Assembly (NCBI RefSeq): GCF_013376455.1
Contig: NZ_CP045504.1
Span: forward strand, 496,001-560,000
Source: Desulfolutivibrio sulfodismutans DSM 3696
Lineage (GTDB): Bacteria > Desulfobacterota > Desulfovibrionia > Desulfovibrionales > Desulfovibrionaceae
Length of the DNA stretch: 64,000 bases
Direction of reading: 5' to 3'
Numbering within the stretch: the first letter of the stretch is position 1; the number at the start of each line of letters is the position of its first letter. The notes beneath the pieces were generated by a model. The model ran no database searches. It had not been told where the DNA came from and saw only the letters and a program-made list of their open reading frames with translations. The translations under genes were made by a program, and so were the position numbers. Below, piece by piece: positions 38,839 to 63,330 of this stretch.

Positions 38839-38932
38839 GGGAGCGTATCGTCACCGGTGTGGCGCCCGGACTTCAAATCCGGTGTGCGGTCGAGAGGTCG
38901 CAGGTAGGTTCGACTCCTATACGCTTCCGCCA
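38839..38932 (+). tRNA. selC: tRNA-Sec (anticodon TCA)
   Basis: The 94-base sequence folds as a selenocysteine tRNA: an extended acceptor stem (GGGAGCGT with ACGCTTCC), an anticodon stem CCGGA/TCCGG around loop CTTCAAA (anticodon 38873-38875), a long variable arm and the GGTTCGACTCC T-loop, with CCA encoded at 38930-38932. It reads UGA as selenocysteine. The prophage begins directly after it, as seen at selC in other bacteria. Confidence 0.96.
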
Positions 38933-45509: not shown

Positions 45510-46135
45510 GAGATGAATGGAGACAGATCCCGGATTTCCCGGCCTACGAGGTCAACCGGCGGGGCATCGTGCGCAAGGTGGGATCGGGCTATCGGCCCAG
45601 CCGCAACGGCCGCAAATATCAACTGTGGGATGGGTCGCTGACAAATGTGTACTACCCGCACGAGCTGGTGGCCCTGGCGTTTGGTGACGACGCCGCTGCG
45701 CCGCCAGCCTCGGCCGTCCCGGCCGAACCTCCGGCGTGCGAAATCCAGCCGTCGACCCCGTGGCCCAGGCCCGAAAAACCGCAGTCAGGCAACTCCCTGG
45801 CCGAAGAAAACGCGGACCTGAAACGTGTGCTCGAGGCTGCGAAAAACGAGACCGAGACCCTGAAACGTGTGCTCGAGGCTGCGAAAATCGAGACCGAGGC
45901 CCTGCAGCGCGAGATCGAGGCGGTGAAAGACGAGAACTACGAGCTGAAAAGCGAGGTCGAGCGGCTGCAAAAAATGCGAGACGTCACCGATTTTCGCGCC
46001 CAGAGAGTGCGCCGCTCGACAACCGTCACGGCCTTTGCCGACGAAAACGCGGCCCTGCAGCGCGAAAACGAGCGGTTGCGGCGCCTGGTCGACGAATACG
46101 AGGCCGAGCGGGCCGTGTACGCCGTGGCCCTGTGA
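45506..46135 (+). CDS. NUMOD4-like domain fused to coiled coil
   Basis: The 209-residue protein begins with EWRQIPDFPAYEVNRRGIVR (residues 4-23), a good match to the NUMOD4 DNA-binding motif of homing HNH nucleases, but no HNH motif follows. Instead a Pro-rich linker and a long coiled coil (about 95-205) occur, with two copies of the unit LKRVLEAAKNETET (about 105-132). At the DNA level the unit is a 42-base tandem duplication (45818-45901). GGAG lies directly before the ATG. Confidence 0.62.
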   Translation: MRDEWRQIPDFPAYEVNRRGIVRKVGSGYRPSRNGRKYQLWDGSLTNVYYPHELVALAFGDDAAAPPASAVPAEPPACEIQPSTPWPRPEKPQSGNSLAEENADLKRVLEAAKNETETLKRVLEAAKIETEALQREIEAVKDENYELKSEVERLQKMRDVTDFRAQRVRRSTTVTAFADENAALQRENERLRRLVDEYEAERAVYAVAL

Positions 46136-46217
46136 GGTGGTGATGACCAACGACCTGGGACAGACAGCCGAGCTGGAGGCGCGCCCCCGCCTCCCCAATT
46201 TTGGGGCGGCCACCCCC

Positions 46218-46246
46218 TTGACTTCCGGCCGCGTTTCGGGTTTGGC
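46218..46246 (+). promoter_or_regulatory. Possible promoter of antirepressor module A
   Basis: TTGACT (46218-46223) and TTTGGC (46241-46246) are 17 bases apart; module B has TTGACA (61715-61720) and TTTGGC at the same spacing although the sequence between differs. Transcription would start at about 46253, the first base of the leader's pairing site. The -10 is a poor match. Confidence 0.4.
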
Positions 46247-46252
46247 TGGTGG

Positions 46253-46440
46253 CCCCAACGTAGCGTGGCCGTCCGTCGCCACGATCCGGTCCCAAGCCGG
46301 GTTGAAGAACGGATGTTTTGTTTTTGTCGCCAAGCATCTTCCTTTGGGAGAGGCAAGCAATCGGCGACAGCCTGACGTCCGGTGTTCCGCGAGGACCCGG
46401 CCGCGCTACGCGGGGGAGCGTCAGGCTGTCGCCTTTTTTC
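46253..46440 (+). ncRNA. C4-like antisense RNA leader of module A
   Basis: GGCGACAGCCTGACG (46363-46377) and CGTCAGGCTGTCGCC (46419-46433) form a perfect 15-bp hairpin followed by six Ts. Its loop holds GGCCGCGCTACGCGGGGG (46399-46416), which pairs with the 5' end of the leader (46253-46270, CCCC-AA-CGTAGCG-T-GGCC) and, more weakly, with 46452-46468, where CGTAGCG abuts and shares one base with the GAGGTG ribosome site of the next gene. This is the logic of the C4 antisense RNA of phages P1 and P7, which blocks antirepressor synthesis. Confidence 0.72.
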
Positions 46441-46472
46441 GTGCCCAAAATCCCAACGTAGCGAGGTGCCTT

Positions 46473-46745
46473 GTGAAAATCGACTTTTCCCCCCTTTCCC
46501 CGGCAGATGGCAAAGGACTGAAAACGGTGGTTCTGTCCCACTTCCTGGAAACCCTTGGCGACGTGCACCGGTACTACATGCGGTTCGAGGCGCGCTCGGC
46601 CCGGGTGTGGATTCTGGCCGAATGCCTGGGCTACGCCCTGGCCATCTGCCGGGCGCTTTTGGCCGAACGCGGGGACTGCTTCCTGAACTTGAGCGCGTCC
46701 GGCGAGACCTGCCGGGTCGTGGAACCGGAAGGGAGGGCGTCATGA
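46473..46745 (+). CDS. Hypothetical protein, first gene of antirepressor module A
   Basis: A 90-residue protein starting at GTG 46473 with GAGGTG (46463-46468) upstream, overlapped by the C4-like target site. It is helical, with VVLSHFLETLGDVHRYYMRF and WILAECLGYALAICRALL segments, and occurs again in module B with one residue changed (PADGKG to PADGNG). The position matches the small icd gene of the P1 operon, but homology to it is not visible. Overlaps the next gene by four bases. Confidence 0.7.
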   Translation: MKIDFSPLSPADGKGLKTVVLSHFLETLGDVHRYYMRFEARSARVWILAECLGYALAICRALLAERGDCFLNLSASGETCRVVEPEGRAS

Positions 46746-47005
46746 AGCGCGACACCATCCAGGTTCCGGCCGCCACCCTCACGGACGCGGCCTCGGCCGT
46801 CGCCGGGCACACCTTCGCCCTGGAGGCCCTGGCCACCATGCTGGATTGCGTGGCCGACACCCGGCCCCAGGACACCCTTGTGGACTGCGCGTTCGGGGCG
46901 GGGACCATTTTGCGGAGTCTGGCCCGGGACGTGCGGGGGGTCGGCGACGACCTCCACGGGCTGGCGTATCCAACGGGATTTTCCAAACTGGAGGTGGTGA
47001 AGTGA
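46742..47005 (+). CDS. Hypothetical protein, second gene of antirepressor module A
   Basis: An 87-residue protein, identical in module B. It contains ALEALATMLDCVADTRPQD and CAFGAGTILRSLARDVRG segments and no recognised domain. Overlaps by four bases at both ends, so the three genes are translationally coupled. Confidence 0.68.
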   Translation: MKRDTIQVPAATLTDAASAVAGHTFALEALATMLDCVADTRPQDTLVDCAFGAGTILRSLARDVRGVGDDLHGLAYPTGFSKLEVVK

Positions 47006-47754
47006 ACGCGGTGCAGCCTTTTTACTTCGACGGCCACGAGGTCCGGACCATCCAGGACGAACAGGGAGAGCCCTGGTTCTTGGTCAAGGACGTGTGCGCA
47101 GTCTTGGAACTTGGGAACGTAACGGAGGCTACTCGTCGTCTCGACGAGGACGAAAGGGGTTCAGTAGTCCTGAACACCTTGGGCGGACCCCAGTCAATGG
47201 CTACAGTCTCCGAGTCCGGGCTGTACTCCCTGATATTCACCAGCCGCAAGCCCGAGGCCCGGGCGTTCCGGAAGTGGGTGACCGGGACGGTGCTCCCGGC
47301 CATCCGCAAGACCGGGCGCTTCGAGGCCCGGCCGGAGGCGGCCCGGGAGATTCCGCCCCACGTCCGGACCATCCCGCCCAGCCTGCGGGCGCAGATCATG
47401 CACAGCGCCACCCAGGCGGCCCGGATGTTCAGCGGCGGCAGCGGCGACGTGTACGAGCACTTCCACCGGCTGTGCGACCTGATTTGCGCCGGACCGGCCC
47501 AGTTCAATTCCACCACCGCGTCCTACGAGGGCGTTTTTAACGAATGGGCGGACCGGTCCCTGGTCCGGGACCAGTTTGCCCGGGTGCAGTGCAAGGATCT
47601 GTACGCGTCGTTTGTGGAGTGGTGCGAGTCCCAGGGGCACATTGCGCCGAGCCTGCGGCGGTTCGGGGCCTGGATGCGCGACAACTACGCCCGCTACGAT
47701 TCGCGGGTGATCTACTATTGCGGCATCCGGCTGGCCAGCAGTCTGCCGCAATAA
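47002..47754 (+). CDS. BRO-N domain antirepressor A
   Basis: The 250-residue protein has an N-terminal BRO-N domain (about residues 8-105, with PWFLVKDVCAVLEL, DEDERGSVV and FRKWVTGTVLPAIRKTGRF), the hallmark of phage antirepressors that bind and inactivate a repressor. The C-terminal 50 residues (VQCKDLYASFVEWCES...SRVIYYCGIRL) match the end of the D5 helicase. GTG 47002 overlaps the previous stop. Confidence 0.82.
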   Translation: MNAVQPFYFDGHEVRTIQDEQGEPWFLVKDVCAVLELGNVTEATRRLDEDERGSVVLNTLGGPQSMATVSESGLYSLIFTSRKPEARAFRKWVTGTVLPAIRKTGRFEARPEAAREIPPHVRTIPPSLRAQIMHSATQAARMFSGGSGDVYEHFHRLCDLICAGPAQFNSTTASYEGVFNEWADRSLVRDQFARVQCKDLYASFVEWCESQGHIAPSLRRFGAWMRDNYARYDSRVIYYCGIRLASSLPQ

Positions 47755-60905: not shown

Positions 60906-61157
60906 ATGGAGCGCGGCCACGGCCCGGCCGTCTACAGCTACGGCTATGGATGGTTTCGGCGCTGCTTGGAAGTGGCGAAAGCGGACGAGAAAATGCGTTG
61001 CAAAATGCGACGGAACGAGCGGGCAGCCTGCTTCGTGGACATGCGGATCGCCGCGCACGCGAAAACGGATGATGCGCAGTCGCACCTGCGGGAACTGACA
61101 GGGAAGGCACCGGATGGCGTCAAATATCTTGGATATCAAGATCAAGGCGGAGACTGA
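60906..61157 (+). CDS. Tail chaperone second frame (gpT-like)
   Basis: An 83-residue frame in -1 relative to the upstream gene, with a DUF1799-like YSYGYGWFRR segment and a Lys/Arg-rich middle. It could be translated from ATG 60906 or, as in lambda, only as a frameshift extension of the upstream chaperone. It overlaps the start of the tape-measure remnant by 44 bases. Confidence 0.6.
   Translation: MERGHGPAVYSYGYGWFRRCLEVAKADEKMRCKMRRNERAACFVDMRIAAHAKTDDAQSHLRELTGKAPDGVKYLGYQDQGGD
61114..61157 (+). repeat. Left copy of the tape-measure 5' duplication
   Basis: Bases 61123-61157 are identical to 63296-63330 (35 bases), and the first nine differ at two silent positions. The pair flanks the inserted 2.1-kb cassette. 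Confidence 0.9.
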
Positions 61158-61192: not shown

Positions 61193-61636
61193 CTAGAAAC
61201 CGGCGGGAAGCTCTTTTTCGACGAGATCGGCGATTGGTGCGGCGCTGTCGAAATCGCCGATTTTCACCAGGGCTTCAAGCATACGGACAGACCTGGACAT
61301 GTCGTCTTTGCCTTTGCACAGGTGTTCATGCTGCGCATCTATTTCGTTGAATTCTTTTCTGTTTTTGCTCAATTTTTCGTCACTTTGAGGGCTAAAGCCG
61401 TATCTCTGCAAGTCTTGTATGACGGCAAGCGCGGCAGCGGACAAGGCAGCTTTCTTTGCGGAAAGATTGAGGCAGTGGTCCACGAGGATAAAATAACGCT
61501 TCAAAACACGCTTCGCTTTGACCTCGTTGCTTTCCTGAAAAGAAAGCATGCCGGGATTCTGGGATACGTAAAAAAAAGCGGTGGCGCACACGATGCAGAC
61601 AATGCCGGTGATCAGAAGGATTTCCAGCCTGCTCAT
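61193..61636 (-). CDS. Single-pass membrane protein, candidate moron
   Basis: The 147-residue leftward gene has one N-terminal membrane helix (about residues 3-24), then a soluble helical domain with HCLNLSAKKAAL and KLSKNRKEFNEIDAQHEHL segments. It is the only leftward gene in the visible prophage, has lower GC than its neighbours, and lies in the cassette inserted into the tape-measure gene. GGGGGCAGGAC precedes its ATG. A superinfection-exclusion or lysogenic-conversion role is possible, unproven. Confidence 0.7.
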   Translation of the reverse strand: MSRLEILLITGIVCIVCATAFFYVSQNPGMLSFQESNEVKAKRVLKRYFILVDHCLNLSAKKAALSAAALAVIQDLQRYGFSPQSDEKLSKNRKEFNEIDAQHEHLCKGKDDMSRSVRMLEALVKIGDFDSAAPIADLVEKELPAGF

Positions 61637-61714
61637 GTCCTGCCCCCTGGGTTGCGGTTTTGCCCGGGACGCTACGAAGCTGGAAAAATCTTTGCAAGAA
61701 GTATTTCCGCCATC

Positions 61715-61743
61715 TTGACATTTTTTTCCTTTTCGGGTTTGGC
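61715..61743 (+). promoter_or_regulatory. Possible promoter of antirepressor module B
   Basis: TTGACA (61715-61720) and TTTGGC (61738-61743) with 17 bases between, matching the arrangement in module A. The -35 is perfect, the -10 poor. Confidence 0.42.
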
Positions 61744-61749
61744 TGGTGG

Positions 61750-61932
61750 CCCCAACTACACGTGGCCGTCCGTCGCCACGATCCGGTCCCAAGCCGGGTT
61801 GAAGAACGGATGTTTTGTTTTTGTCGCCAAGCACCTTCCTTTGGGAGGGGCAAGCAATTGGCGGCATGACGTCCGGGTGTCCGCGAGGCCCCGGCCGCGT
61901 GTAGCGGGGGAACGTCATGCCGCCTTTTTTTG
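61750..61932 (+). ncRNA. C4-like antisense RNA leader of module B
   Basis: Here the hairpin is GGCGGCATGACG (61860-61871) with CGTCATGCCGCC (61913-61924), followed by seven Ts. The loop segment GGCCGCGTGTAGCGGGGG (61893-61910) pairs with 61750-61767 (CCCC-AA-CTACACG-T-GGCC) and with 61941-61958, where CTACACG abuts the GAGGTG site. Arm sequences CCCC/GGGG and GGCC match copy A while the 7-nt core is different in all three places. Confidence 0.75.
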
Positions 61933-61962
61933 TGCCCAAACCCCAACTACACGAGGTGCCTT

Positions 61963-62235
61963 GTGAAAATCGACTTTTCCCCCCTTTCCCCGGCCGATGG
62001 CAACGGACTGAAAACCGTGGTTCTGTCCCACTTCCTGGAAACCCTTGGCGACGTGCACCGGTATTACATGCGGTTCGAGGCGCGCTCGGCCCGGGTGTGG
62101 ATTCTGGCCGAATGCCTGGGCTACGCCCTGGCCATCTGCCGGGCGCTTTTGGCCGAACGCGGGGACTGCTTCCTGAACTTGAGCGCGTCCGGCGAGACCT
62201 GCCGGGTCGTGGAACCGGAAGGGAGGGCGTCATGA
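61963..62235 (+). CDS. Hypothetical protein, first gene of antirepressor module B
   Basis: The 90-residue duplicate of the module A first gene, with one changed residue. GTG 61963 follows GAGGTG (61953-61958). In this copy the frame is closed by a stop upstream, which confirms the GTG start and shows that the longer frame in copy A is not the gene. Confidence 0.7.
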   Translation: MKIDFSPLSPADGNGLKTVVLSHFLETLGDVHRYYMRFEARSARVWILAECLGYALAICRALLAERGDCFLNLSASGETCRVVEPEGRAS

Positions 62236-62495
62236 AGCGCGACACCATCCAGGTTCCGGCCGCCACCCTCACGGACGCGGCCTCGGCCGTCGCCGGGCAC
62301 ACCTTCGCCCTGGAGGCCCTGGCCACCATGCTGGATTGCGTGGCCGACACCCGGCCCCAGGACACCCTTGTGGACTGCGCGTTCGGGGCGGGGACCATTT
62401 TGCGGAGTCTGGCCCGGGACGTGCGGGGGGTCGGCGACGACCTCCACGGGCTGGCGTATCCAACGGGATTTTCAAAACTGGAGGTGGTGAAGTGA
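62232..62495 (+). CDS. Hypothetical protein, second gene of antirepressor module B
   Basis: The 87-residue protein is identical to the one in module A, with one silent base change seen near its end. It overlaps both neighbours by four bases. Confidence 0.68.
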   Translation: MKRDTIQVPAATLTDAASAVAGHTFALEALATMLDCVADTRPQDTLVDCAFGAGTILRSLARDVRGVGDDLHGLAYPTGFSKLEVVK

Positions 62496-63268
62496 ACGCG
62501 GTGCAGCCTTTTTACTTCGACGGCCACGAGGTGCGCACGGTCCTGGACGAACGGGGAGAGCCCTGGTTCGTGGCCAAGGACGTGTGCCGGGTGTTGGATT
62601 TGGGGAACGTGACCGAGTCCGCGCGTGGATTGGATGAGGACGAAAGAGGTTTCTTCAGAAATCCTGAACAAACCCCCGAGGGCGGAAACCCGAACATGCT
62701 CACCATCTCCGAGTCCGGTCTGTACGGCCTGATCTTTCGGAGCCGCAAGCCCGAGGCCCGGGCGTTCCGGAAGTGGGTGACCGGGACGGTGCTCCCGGCC
62801 ATCCGCAAGACCGGGCGCTTCATGCCCGGCGAATCCGTGGTTGTGGAACTGCCCCGGCGGGTGCGGGCCATGCGCCCCCACATCCGGGTGGCGGTCCTGT
62901 CCGGAGCGGTGCAGGCCGCCAAGATGGGCAATCTCGGGTCCGACGACATCTATTTTCATCTCCGCACGCTGTTCGAGATCATCGCTGGCCCGGACCAGAT
63001 CGAGGAACGCCTTGAAGGGGCGCAACGCGCCGTGCGCTGGGAGCGCCACTTCGAGGACTGGGCCGAGGAATGCATCGAGAAGAGCAAAGGAAGTGTCGTC
63101 GGGGCGCAAGACTTATACGAGTCTTTTTTAGGTTACTGCAAAGCACAACTTGGAGTGGAAGGCCCTTCACAACGCCGGTTCGGTTCCTGGCTGGGACAGA
63201 GGTTCTACCGGGAAAAGAAACACAACGTGCGCTACTTCGGGTTGCGGTTGCGCGACATAGATGGGTAG
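62492..63268 (+). CDS. BRO-N domain antirepressor B
   Basis: The 258-residue antirepressor shares the BRO-N start with copy A but differs in the middle of the BRO domain (FFRNPEQTPEGGNPNML) and entirely in the linker, while RKPEARAFRKWVTGTVLPA is identical. The C-terminus (VGAQDLYESFLGYCKAQ...HNVRYFGLRLRD) is again the D5-type module. It may act on a different repressor. Confidence 0.82.
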   Translation: MNAVQPFYFDGHEVRTVLDERGEPWFVAKDVCRVLDLGNVTESARGLDEDERGFFRNPEQTPEGGNPNMLTISESGLYGLIFRSRKPEARAFRKWVTGTVLPAIRKTGRFMPGESVVVELPRRVRAMRPHIRVAVLSGAVQAAKMGNLGSDDIYFHLRTLFEIIAGPDQIEERLEGAQRAVRWERHFEDWAEECIEKSKGSVVGAQDLYESFLGYCKAQLGVEGPSQRRFGSWLGQRFYREKKHNVRYFGLRLRDIDG

Positions 63269-63286
63269 CACAAAGGGAGACGGCTG

Positions 63287-63330
63287 ATGGCCTCCAATAT
63301 CTTGGATATCAAGATCAAGGCGGAGACTGA
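63287..63330 (+). repeat. Right copy of the tape-measure 5' duplication
   Basis: This copy has the ribosome site AAGGGAG and opens the intact tape-measure gene. Confidence 0.9.

Follow-up and report, generated by a model that had tools for sequence, protein, structure and literature searches.

Introduction

Phages P1 and P7 provide the reference case of C4-type control. The C4 RNA of P1 is listed as trans-acting in a summary of C4 function (PMC12197685) and is described as being released by RNase P, and P1 and P7 are said to differ by four nucleotides in C4 and its targets (PMC5320573). The same source describes Acinetobacter baumannii genomes as each carrying many C4-like RNAs whose target loops vary. 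In P4, the antisense CI RNA lies between seqA and seqC and has one upstream and one downstream target, and IsrK of Gifsy-1 combines a terminated small RNA with a read-through antirepressor mRNA, which it activates (both PMC4825925). Further literature touched on here comprises Weinberg 2010 (PMC2864571) and PMC8040213.

Here we describe a leader upstream of a prophage antirepressor operon, designated module A, which probably functions as a C4-type phage immunity switch, together with the family of hairpins to which it belongs.

Results

The leader and operon of module A

The window, i.e. the whole stretch of 64,000 nucleotides under analysis, corresponds to positions 496001-560000 of contig C1 of the 4.44 Mb host genome. 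The original prediction had assigned to the leader of module A the structure of a C4-type antisense RNA, built from a 15-bp hairpin with a following T-run, a loop segment complementary to the 5' end of the leader, and a second complementary site running into the ribosome site of the next gene. All three elements were recovered from the sequence: the hairpin arms lie at 46363-46377 and 46419-46433 and are followed by six T at 46434-46439; the loop segment 46399-46416 pairs with 46253-46270 through 15 Watson-Crick pairs and one G-U pair, with a 2-base mismatch; and the second site, at 46452-46463, carries CGTAGCG and runs into GAGGTG at 46463-46468. The features of module A are as follows.

46218-46223, plus strand: -35-like TTGACT; the T1 core starts 41 nt further on
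46253-46265, plus strand: T1, the upstream target, near the expected transcript 5' end (sequence and family statistics), with a-site CCCC at 46253-46256 and b-site core CGTAGCG at 46259-46265
46324-46331, plus strand: TTGTCGCC, able to pair with the 5' arm of the terminator hairpin, a possible further antiterminator strand
46363-46433, plus strand: putative C4-like antisense RNA (fold, pair counts, covariance model R1 77.0 bits)
46363-46377/46419-46433, plus strand: outer stem, 15 bp
46379-46400, plus strand: hairpin 1 with GCGA tetraloop (fold)
46401-46413, plus strand: hairpin 2, antisense core CGCTACG at 46404-46410
46412-46416, plus strand: a' strand GGGGG
46434-46439, plus strand: U-run (six T), which turns the outer stem into an intrinsic terminator (sequence)
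46452-46463, plus strand: T2, the downstream target, CCCAACGTAGCG, sharing the core CGTAGCG
46463-46468, plus strand: ribosome site GAGGTG, whose first G is the last G of CCCAACGTAGCG
46473-46745, plus strand: ORF1, 90 aa, GTG start, no known family (Pfam, PHROG), in the place of icd
46742-47005, plus strand: ORF2, 87 aa, no known family, its start overlapping the ORF1 stop (ATGA)
47002-47754, plus strand: BRO-N antirepressor, its start overlapping the ORF2 stop (GTGA)

The bipartite pairing sequence of module A, CCCC-AA-CGTAGCG, occurs in both T1 and T2, and the GTG start at 46473 follows four bases after GAGGTG. The hairpin folds with -50.6 kcal/mol (z -5.1), as good a value being found in none of 200 shuffled sequences; its 5' end is GG, and the U-run offers an alternative 3' end. 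The strand TTGTCGCC can form eight pairs, one of them G-U, with the 5' arm of the terminator, and across the family such strands fit their own arm modestly better than others (own 16.5 versus cross 15.1; reached in 0 of 20,000 permutations, with relatedness not removed). As this permutation leaves relatedness in, we give the possible antiterminator strand at 46324-46331 little weight.

Start and stop codons of ORF1, ORF2 and the BRO-N gene form 4-base overlaps. As had been anticipated, the first gene is not recognizable as icd, ORF1 being without a Pfam or PHROG family match, and the operon ends in a BRO-N antirepressor (Pfam Bro-N, E 3.6e-22; PHROG anti-repressor Ant, E 8.9e-47). A large terminase gpA gene and a lambda-type portal gene follow the BRO gene, and the region is therefore regarded as a prophage. 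ORF1 itself is uninformative on the spread of the module, since its relatives occur only in what is probably the same prophage: among 99 genomes it was present only in the host genome, twice, a protein search of genome_contigs yielded no relative, and the two matches in viral_contigs lie on one contig with the spacing of modules A and B, this contig probably representing the same prophage. A selenocysteine tRNA gene at window positions 38839-38932, close to the prophage region's left end, is a possible attachment site, and was the only result of a scan of the whole window at the Rfam gathering thresholds. Scattered weak matches in A and B at E≤10 (Twister-P5, norovirus 3'UTR, Mcr7 and others) were judged to be due to chance.

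Natural exchange of the pairing code

A second copy, module B, occupies positions 61731-62830 of the window and is 91.7% identical to module A.

61715-61720, plus strand: -35-like TTGACA
61750-61762, plus strand: T1, CCCCAACTACACG
61860-61924, plus strand: C4-like hairpin (R1 92.0 bits)
61860-61871/61913-61924, plus strand: outer stem, compensated, 12 bp versus 15 in A
61898-61904, plus strand: antisense core CGTGTAG
61925-61931, plus strand: U-run
61941-61956, plus strand: T2, CCCCAACTACACGAGG
61963-62235, plus strand: ORF1, 98% identical to that of A
62492-63268, plus strand: BRO-N antirepressor (Pfam Bro-N, E 4.6e-24)

When 15-16 bases are compared per site, the two modules differ in a four-base block only: T1, loop and T2 read GTAG/CTAC/GTAG in A versus TACA/TGTA/TACA in B, and pairing is kept exactly. 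The original prediction had left this second, self-consistent code of module B unmentioned. The core changes, in a coordinated manner, even between nearly identical copies such as these. Copy C, elsewhere in the host genome (C1:1340446-1340654, minus strand), carries TAAG/CTTA/TAAG and lies upstream of a Rha-type regulator gene (PHROG E 1.3e-25), and copy D, in the related genome G113, carries TCTC/GAGA/TCTC directly upstream of a gene that we read as BRO-N-like. When 198 relatives were searched at the DNA level with E≤1, matches occurred in 161 genomes, as expected by chance, among which the host-genome places A, B and C stand out. The two best of the remaining matches were inspected; that in G113 is the genuine copy D, and that in G140 was rejected as a copy, being only a lone arm within other sequence.

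Module B and a minus-strand ORF (approximately 61193-61639) are flanked by a 45-bp direct repeat (95.6%) at 61113-61157 and 63286-63330, a layout that resembles the outcome of a cassette insertion at the start of the gene beginning at 63287.

A family of C4-like hairpins

A 20-base pattern taken from hairpin 1 was found in 13 stretches of genome_contigs, 12 of them on contigs titled Desulfovibrio, Bilophila or Mailhella; one of the 13, L042 (Planobispora), was unrelated by eye and discarded. A shorter hairpin 1 pattern matched 18 stretches of viral_contigs, five of which (L050, L051, L054, L057 and L059) were discarded on the same ground, and the pattern CCGGGAGTCCGNGAGGCCCNGG had no match in viral_contigs. 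A covariance model, R1, was built from 22 hairpins, A and B among them, in which 99.4% of the cells are paired. In the MAFFT alignment of these 22 hairpins, 12 of 24 stem pairs showed changes on both sides, a result obtained in none of 500 shuffles; pairs were also counted on 78 distinct hairpins, in an alignment fitted to the structure.

At E≤0.001, R1 matched 35 of 288 family genomes, representing 11 of 44 genera, where the filters of the search lose weak matches and three of the 35 genomes rest on 29-33 bits only. In a sample of the phylum, 6 of 395 genomes matched at E≤0.0001; four of the six belong to other families. The genome collections consist in part of metagenome bins. Altogether 84 distinct hairpins were reduced to 78 non-redundant ones, with 72 distinct hairpin-2 sequences.

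The host genome holds six copies, two of which lie within identical stretches of 3,075 bases (L097, C1:849546-852620, and L098, C1:4213323-4216397). These are 3.4 Mb apart and suggest a duplicated prophage in one chromosome. A module identical to theirs is also borne by the phage contig stretch L044, which contains three type II hammerhead ribozymes (L044:978-1931; 74.1, 74.1 and 62.8 bits) and whose leader matched none of 50,697 phage records at E≤0.001.

Target pairing and anatomy across the family

With thresholds of our own choice, at least 7 nt for T1 and at least 6 nt for T2, 65 of the 78 hairpins matched their own T1 (versus 8.2% of cross pairs) and 63 their own T2 (versus 13.1%). Both targets were present at threshold for 56 hairpins, and 22 lacked one or both. 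The summed matches to T1 and to T2 were equalled in none of 20,000 permutations, relatedness not being removed. This covariation across the family shows base pairing between the hairpin and its targets.

The surroundings of the targets are equally regular. TTGAC lies no more than 75 nt 5' of the T1 core in 63 of the 65 modules, in 61 of them at a distance of 39-48 nt, whereas the 75 nt before that contain it in 4 of 64; from this placement, transcripts should start at or just before T1. An SD-like sequence with a start codon follows T2 in 58 of 60 modules. The T2-like pattern CCCAACN{4,6}GAGG occurred 30 times in the host genome, versus 24 times for the reversed pattern, and the free-standing occurrences other than the module sites were dismissed as background.

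Targets are bipartite, with CCC no more than 12 nt 5' of the core at 56 of 65 T1 and 52 of 60 T2 sites, and this CCC faces the GGGGA junction strand of the hairpin. A control on the a-site in 56 modules was weak (own 8.5 versus cross 8.1) because GGGGA is common to most members. More can be learned from the 7 of 78 hairpins whose junction strand is not GGGGA, where the a-site of the target mostly departs as well, as in L090 with junction TTGGTA and target TACCAA. For the five of these that have both targets, the own a-site sums were 12, 13, 8, 9 and 10, versus mean sums of 10.3, 7.4, 4.8, 4.8 and 5.9 against targets of the GGGGA type. Among phylum members from other families, L135, L137 and L138 have a two-part T1 by eye and lack T2, and L136 has no clear two-part T1.

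A 12-13-mer present as two direct repeats and an inverted copy could also make up a protein-binding site, and we considered a feature acting at the DNA level, such as a site of recombination or repeats bound by a protein, as well as an ordinary terminator accompanied by chance repeats. The 78 members contain 72 different hairpin-2 sequences, most of them still complementary to their targets, and the structure, the position of the SD sequence and the distance to the promoter are conserved, so that explanations of this sort are extremely improbable. These comparative tests of structure, targets and operon support, in kind, the C4-type reading from which the analysis started.

Predicted folding of the leader

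We calculated the probability of the terminator stem in the 56 modules having both targets, by an equilibrium prediction that omits pseudoknots and co-transcriptional folding. The mean was 0.32 in the native leader and 0.87 with T1 masked, compared with 0.46 when another stretch was masked and 0.86 when the leaders of other modules (eight each) were used. Probabilities above 0.5 were reached in 17 native leaders, 49 with T1 masked, 26 with the other mask and 54 with foreign leaders. Masking of T1 raised the value from 0.01 to 1.00 in module A, from 0.02 to 1.00 in B and from 0.00 to 0.99 in C; an unrelated mask restored the terminator in B (1.00, equal to the T1 mask), not in A (0.06). Eight modules with T1 and without T2 at threshold behaved likewise (means 0.34 and 0.88). 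Module F of the host genome keeps its terminator unmasked (0.82), and no effect of T1 on the fold was predicted in L135, L137 and L138 from other families or in the metagenome contig L046.

The masking result suggests that T1 can act as an antiterminator in cis, and antisense RNA bound to T1 would restore termination. A rival device is an attenuator acting in cis only, in which T1, the hairpin loop and T2 serve as alternative pairing partners inside a single leader, with no free RNA active in trans. T1 and the loop do lie in one transcript, T1 pairing dominates the predicted fold of 38 of the 56 leaders, and pairing in cis would give all of the covariation equally. The hairpins lacking targets of their own, considered next, speak on the other side.

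Orphan and tandem hairpins and separate codes

Hairpins without a matching T1 or T2 nearby were observed in L031, L060, L117:1937-2011, L128 (two) and L130:2255-2330. The L031 core is identical to CCTTACGAG, the sequence that forms the target in L049 and in module F of the host genome. A 9-nt foreign match among 124 targets was found for 2 of 8 orphans versus 1 of 56 cognate hairpins (Fisher p 0.04), a comparison whose grouping was picked after looking and which serves as a lead only.

C4-like hairpins also occur in tandem, in L034:362-514, L113:1445-1599 and L167:6418-6518, the last as two pattern matches only. In both L034 and L113, it is the first hairpin that fits the local T1 and, judged by eye, the T2 lying past the second hairpin; the second hairpin has a foreign core that fits neither neighbouring site.

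An attenuator confined to cis pairing does not account for hairpins that have no convincing neighbouring target, e.g. L031 and both of L128, or for the second hairpins of L034 and L113. Furthermore, the C4 RNA of P1, which has the same layout, is listed as trans-acting (PMC12197685), and we consider purely cis-acting control unlikely. We infer, with some help from these target-less hairpins and tandem pairs, that the RNA is produced and acts in trans.

The six modules of the host genome represent five codes. Duplex energies between loop and T2, which leave out internal structure, were -22.0 to -23.9 kcal/mol for cognate and -12.2 to -18.5 kcal/mol for other combinations, with one exception, the E loop with the T2 of F (-22.3 versus -22.0 kcal/mol with its own T2). 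Calculated in the same way, loop-T1 energies were -21.3 to -29.2 for cognate and -13.1 to -23.1 kcal/mol for other pairs, the strongest foreign pair being the C loop with the T1 of A (-23.1 versus -24.9 with its own). According to these energies, the codes in the host genome would be mostly, not wholly, separate.

Genes downstream of the modules

Pfam assignments were collected for 120 downstream ORFs, four from the window and the others hand-picked, nearly all from a list of 163, so that the set stayed small. Bro-N was found in 15, Toprim in 14, Rha in 8, AntA in 3, HicB-like in 3 and P22_AR_N in 2, antirepressor-type proteins being the commonest named kind. The primase-type downstream genes are reminiscent of the arrangement in P4.

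Control of the P4 type, i.e. premature termination brought about through the two sites with the ribosome site being incidental, has to be weighed at this point. P4 has the same layout, seqA-CI-seqC (PMC4825925), Toprim/primase genes follow some of the modules (14 of the 120 ORFs), and the T1-masking result counts in its favour. T2 is, however, placed on the SD sequence, followed by a start codon, in 58 of 60 modules, which pure attenuation does not need, and we regard this explanation as rather unlikely.

Discussion

A model of immunity control

For module A, returning to the C4-type switch that we favour, the following mechanism is proposed. Transcription of the leader would start from a single promoter, so that the first bases of the transcript are T1. 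The leader would fold into a three-way hairpin followed by a U-run, at which most transcripts would end and yield a small antisense RNA. This RNA would pair with T1 and T2 through the exposed loop of hairpin 2 (b') and the 3' strand of the junction (a'). In the read-through mRNA, pairing at T2 would cover the ribosome site of ORF1, and through translational coupling ORF1, ORF2 and the BRO-N antirepressor would all be shut off, leaving the prophage repressed. A free T1 would pair in cis with the emerging hairpin and prevent termination; a T1 occupied by antisense RNA would allow the terminator to form, and immunity would in this way reinforce itself. The U-run terminator and the disruption of the stem by T1, both unlike P1, suggest that antisense-controlled attenuation is combined with a translation block. 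The translation block appears likely; the attenuation half of the mechanism, which draws on predicted folds, has about an even chance of being correct.

Tentatively, the scheme can be extended to a self-reinforcing immunity code common to the prophages of Desulfovibrionaceae, a possibility that we hold at well below even. The antisense RNA would be the terminator of its own leader, T1-bound RNA would terminate the next transcript and T2-bound RNA would silence leakage; the blocks would diversify so that several prophages can co-reside in one cell under mostly separate codes, and orphan or second tandem hairpins would be kept against the antirepressors of rival phages.

The same C4 logic appears to be at work here in sulphate reducers, beyond the reach of the Rfam C4 model, and the tens of natural compensatory exchanges amount to a mutate-and-restore experiment. 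They would provide a rule for predicting which Desulfovibrionaceae prophages share or ignore each other's immunity, and a set of small swappable RNA-RNA codes.

Comparison with known antisense systems

The Rfam C4 model, which had been proposed as a check, did not recognize the leader. RF01695 (gathering threshold 45 bits), which detected P1 with 68.8 bits as a positive control, gave no match in 46100-46600 even at E≤10 and none in B. Among 285 family genomes none exceeded the cut-off, and the host genome was not among the two with weaker matches; conversely, R1 at E≤10 did not find P1. The c4-2 family (RF02944), which reportedly goes back to a 2017 paper, belongs to the same clan (CL00128) and shares the topology and, within hairpin 1, a GNRA-type loop preceded by a 5' bulge. 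Several members came just below its 41-bit cut-off (L062 39.0, L065 32.6 and L053 31.4 bits); no match exceeded it in 247 family genomes, five of which matched at E≤0.01, and none was found in the host genome, A or B. The hairpin family is thus probably nearer to c4-2 than to C4. Since it has a C4-like topology, yet falls below the criteria of both Rfam families, we call it a new candidate subfamily of the C4 clan, occurring mainly in Desulfovibrionaceae. Titles and the beginnings of abstracts on C4, c4-2, P4 CI and IsrK do not describe this family, a search on antisense RNAs and antirepressors of Desulfovibrio prophages yielded no paper, and an earlier description is possible.

In one family genome (G120:C1), seven sub-threshold Rfam C4 matches (27.7-36.5 bits) at five places may represent a second C4-like subfamily. 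The P1 leader around a1-b1 (L030:2231-2312) scores 35.1 bits against the Rfam isrK model, whose cut-off is 50, a possible link between IsrK and the C4 leader.

The group 1 C4-like sRNAs of A. baumannii are recognized by the Rfam motif search, unlike the present family, and the passages cited suggest kinds of target, with no paired target sites (PMC5320573). IsrK resembles the present proposal in its terminated small RNA and read-through mRNA and differs in activating that mRNA. P4 CI has two flanking targets as found here; the likeness is one of description, termination being predicted here by folding.

It is P1 to which module A compares most fully. In both, an outer stem encloses two inner hairpins (here from the fold of module A and the covariation in the family), the complement of b lies in the hairpin-2 loop and that of a in the 3' junction strand, and the targets lie upstream and at the ribosome site of the antirepressor operon. 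The P1 order a1-b1 (RF03163), C4, a2-b2, icd, ant is the layout of module A, and the 4-base overlap of icd and ant1 recurs between the module A ORFs. The four-base block by which A and B differ may be likened to the four-nucleotide difference described for P1 and P7 (PMC5320573). On the other hand, the a-b spacer is 2 nt in A versus 7 (site 1) and 22 (site 2) in P1, and the first gene is icd in P1 and here ORF1, without Pfam or PHROG family. The P1 C4 RNA has no U-run, and its outer stem is predicted to be stable whether a1-b1 is masked or not (0.93 and 1.00), which speaks against the attenuation half, whereas the hairpin described here ends in a U-run and its stem is predicted to be opened by T1. 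An antisense RNA that is itself the terminator, with T1 as the antiterminator, would, if true, unite immunity of the P1 type and of the P4 type in a single device.
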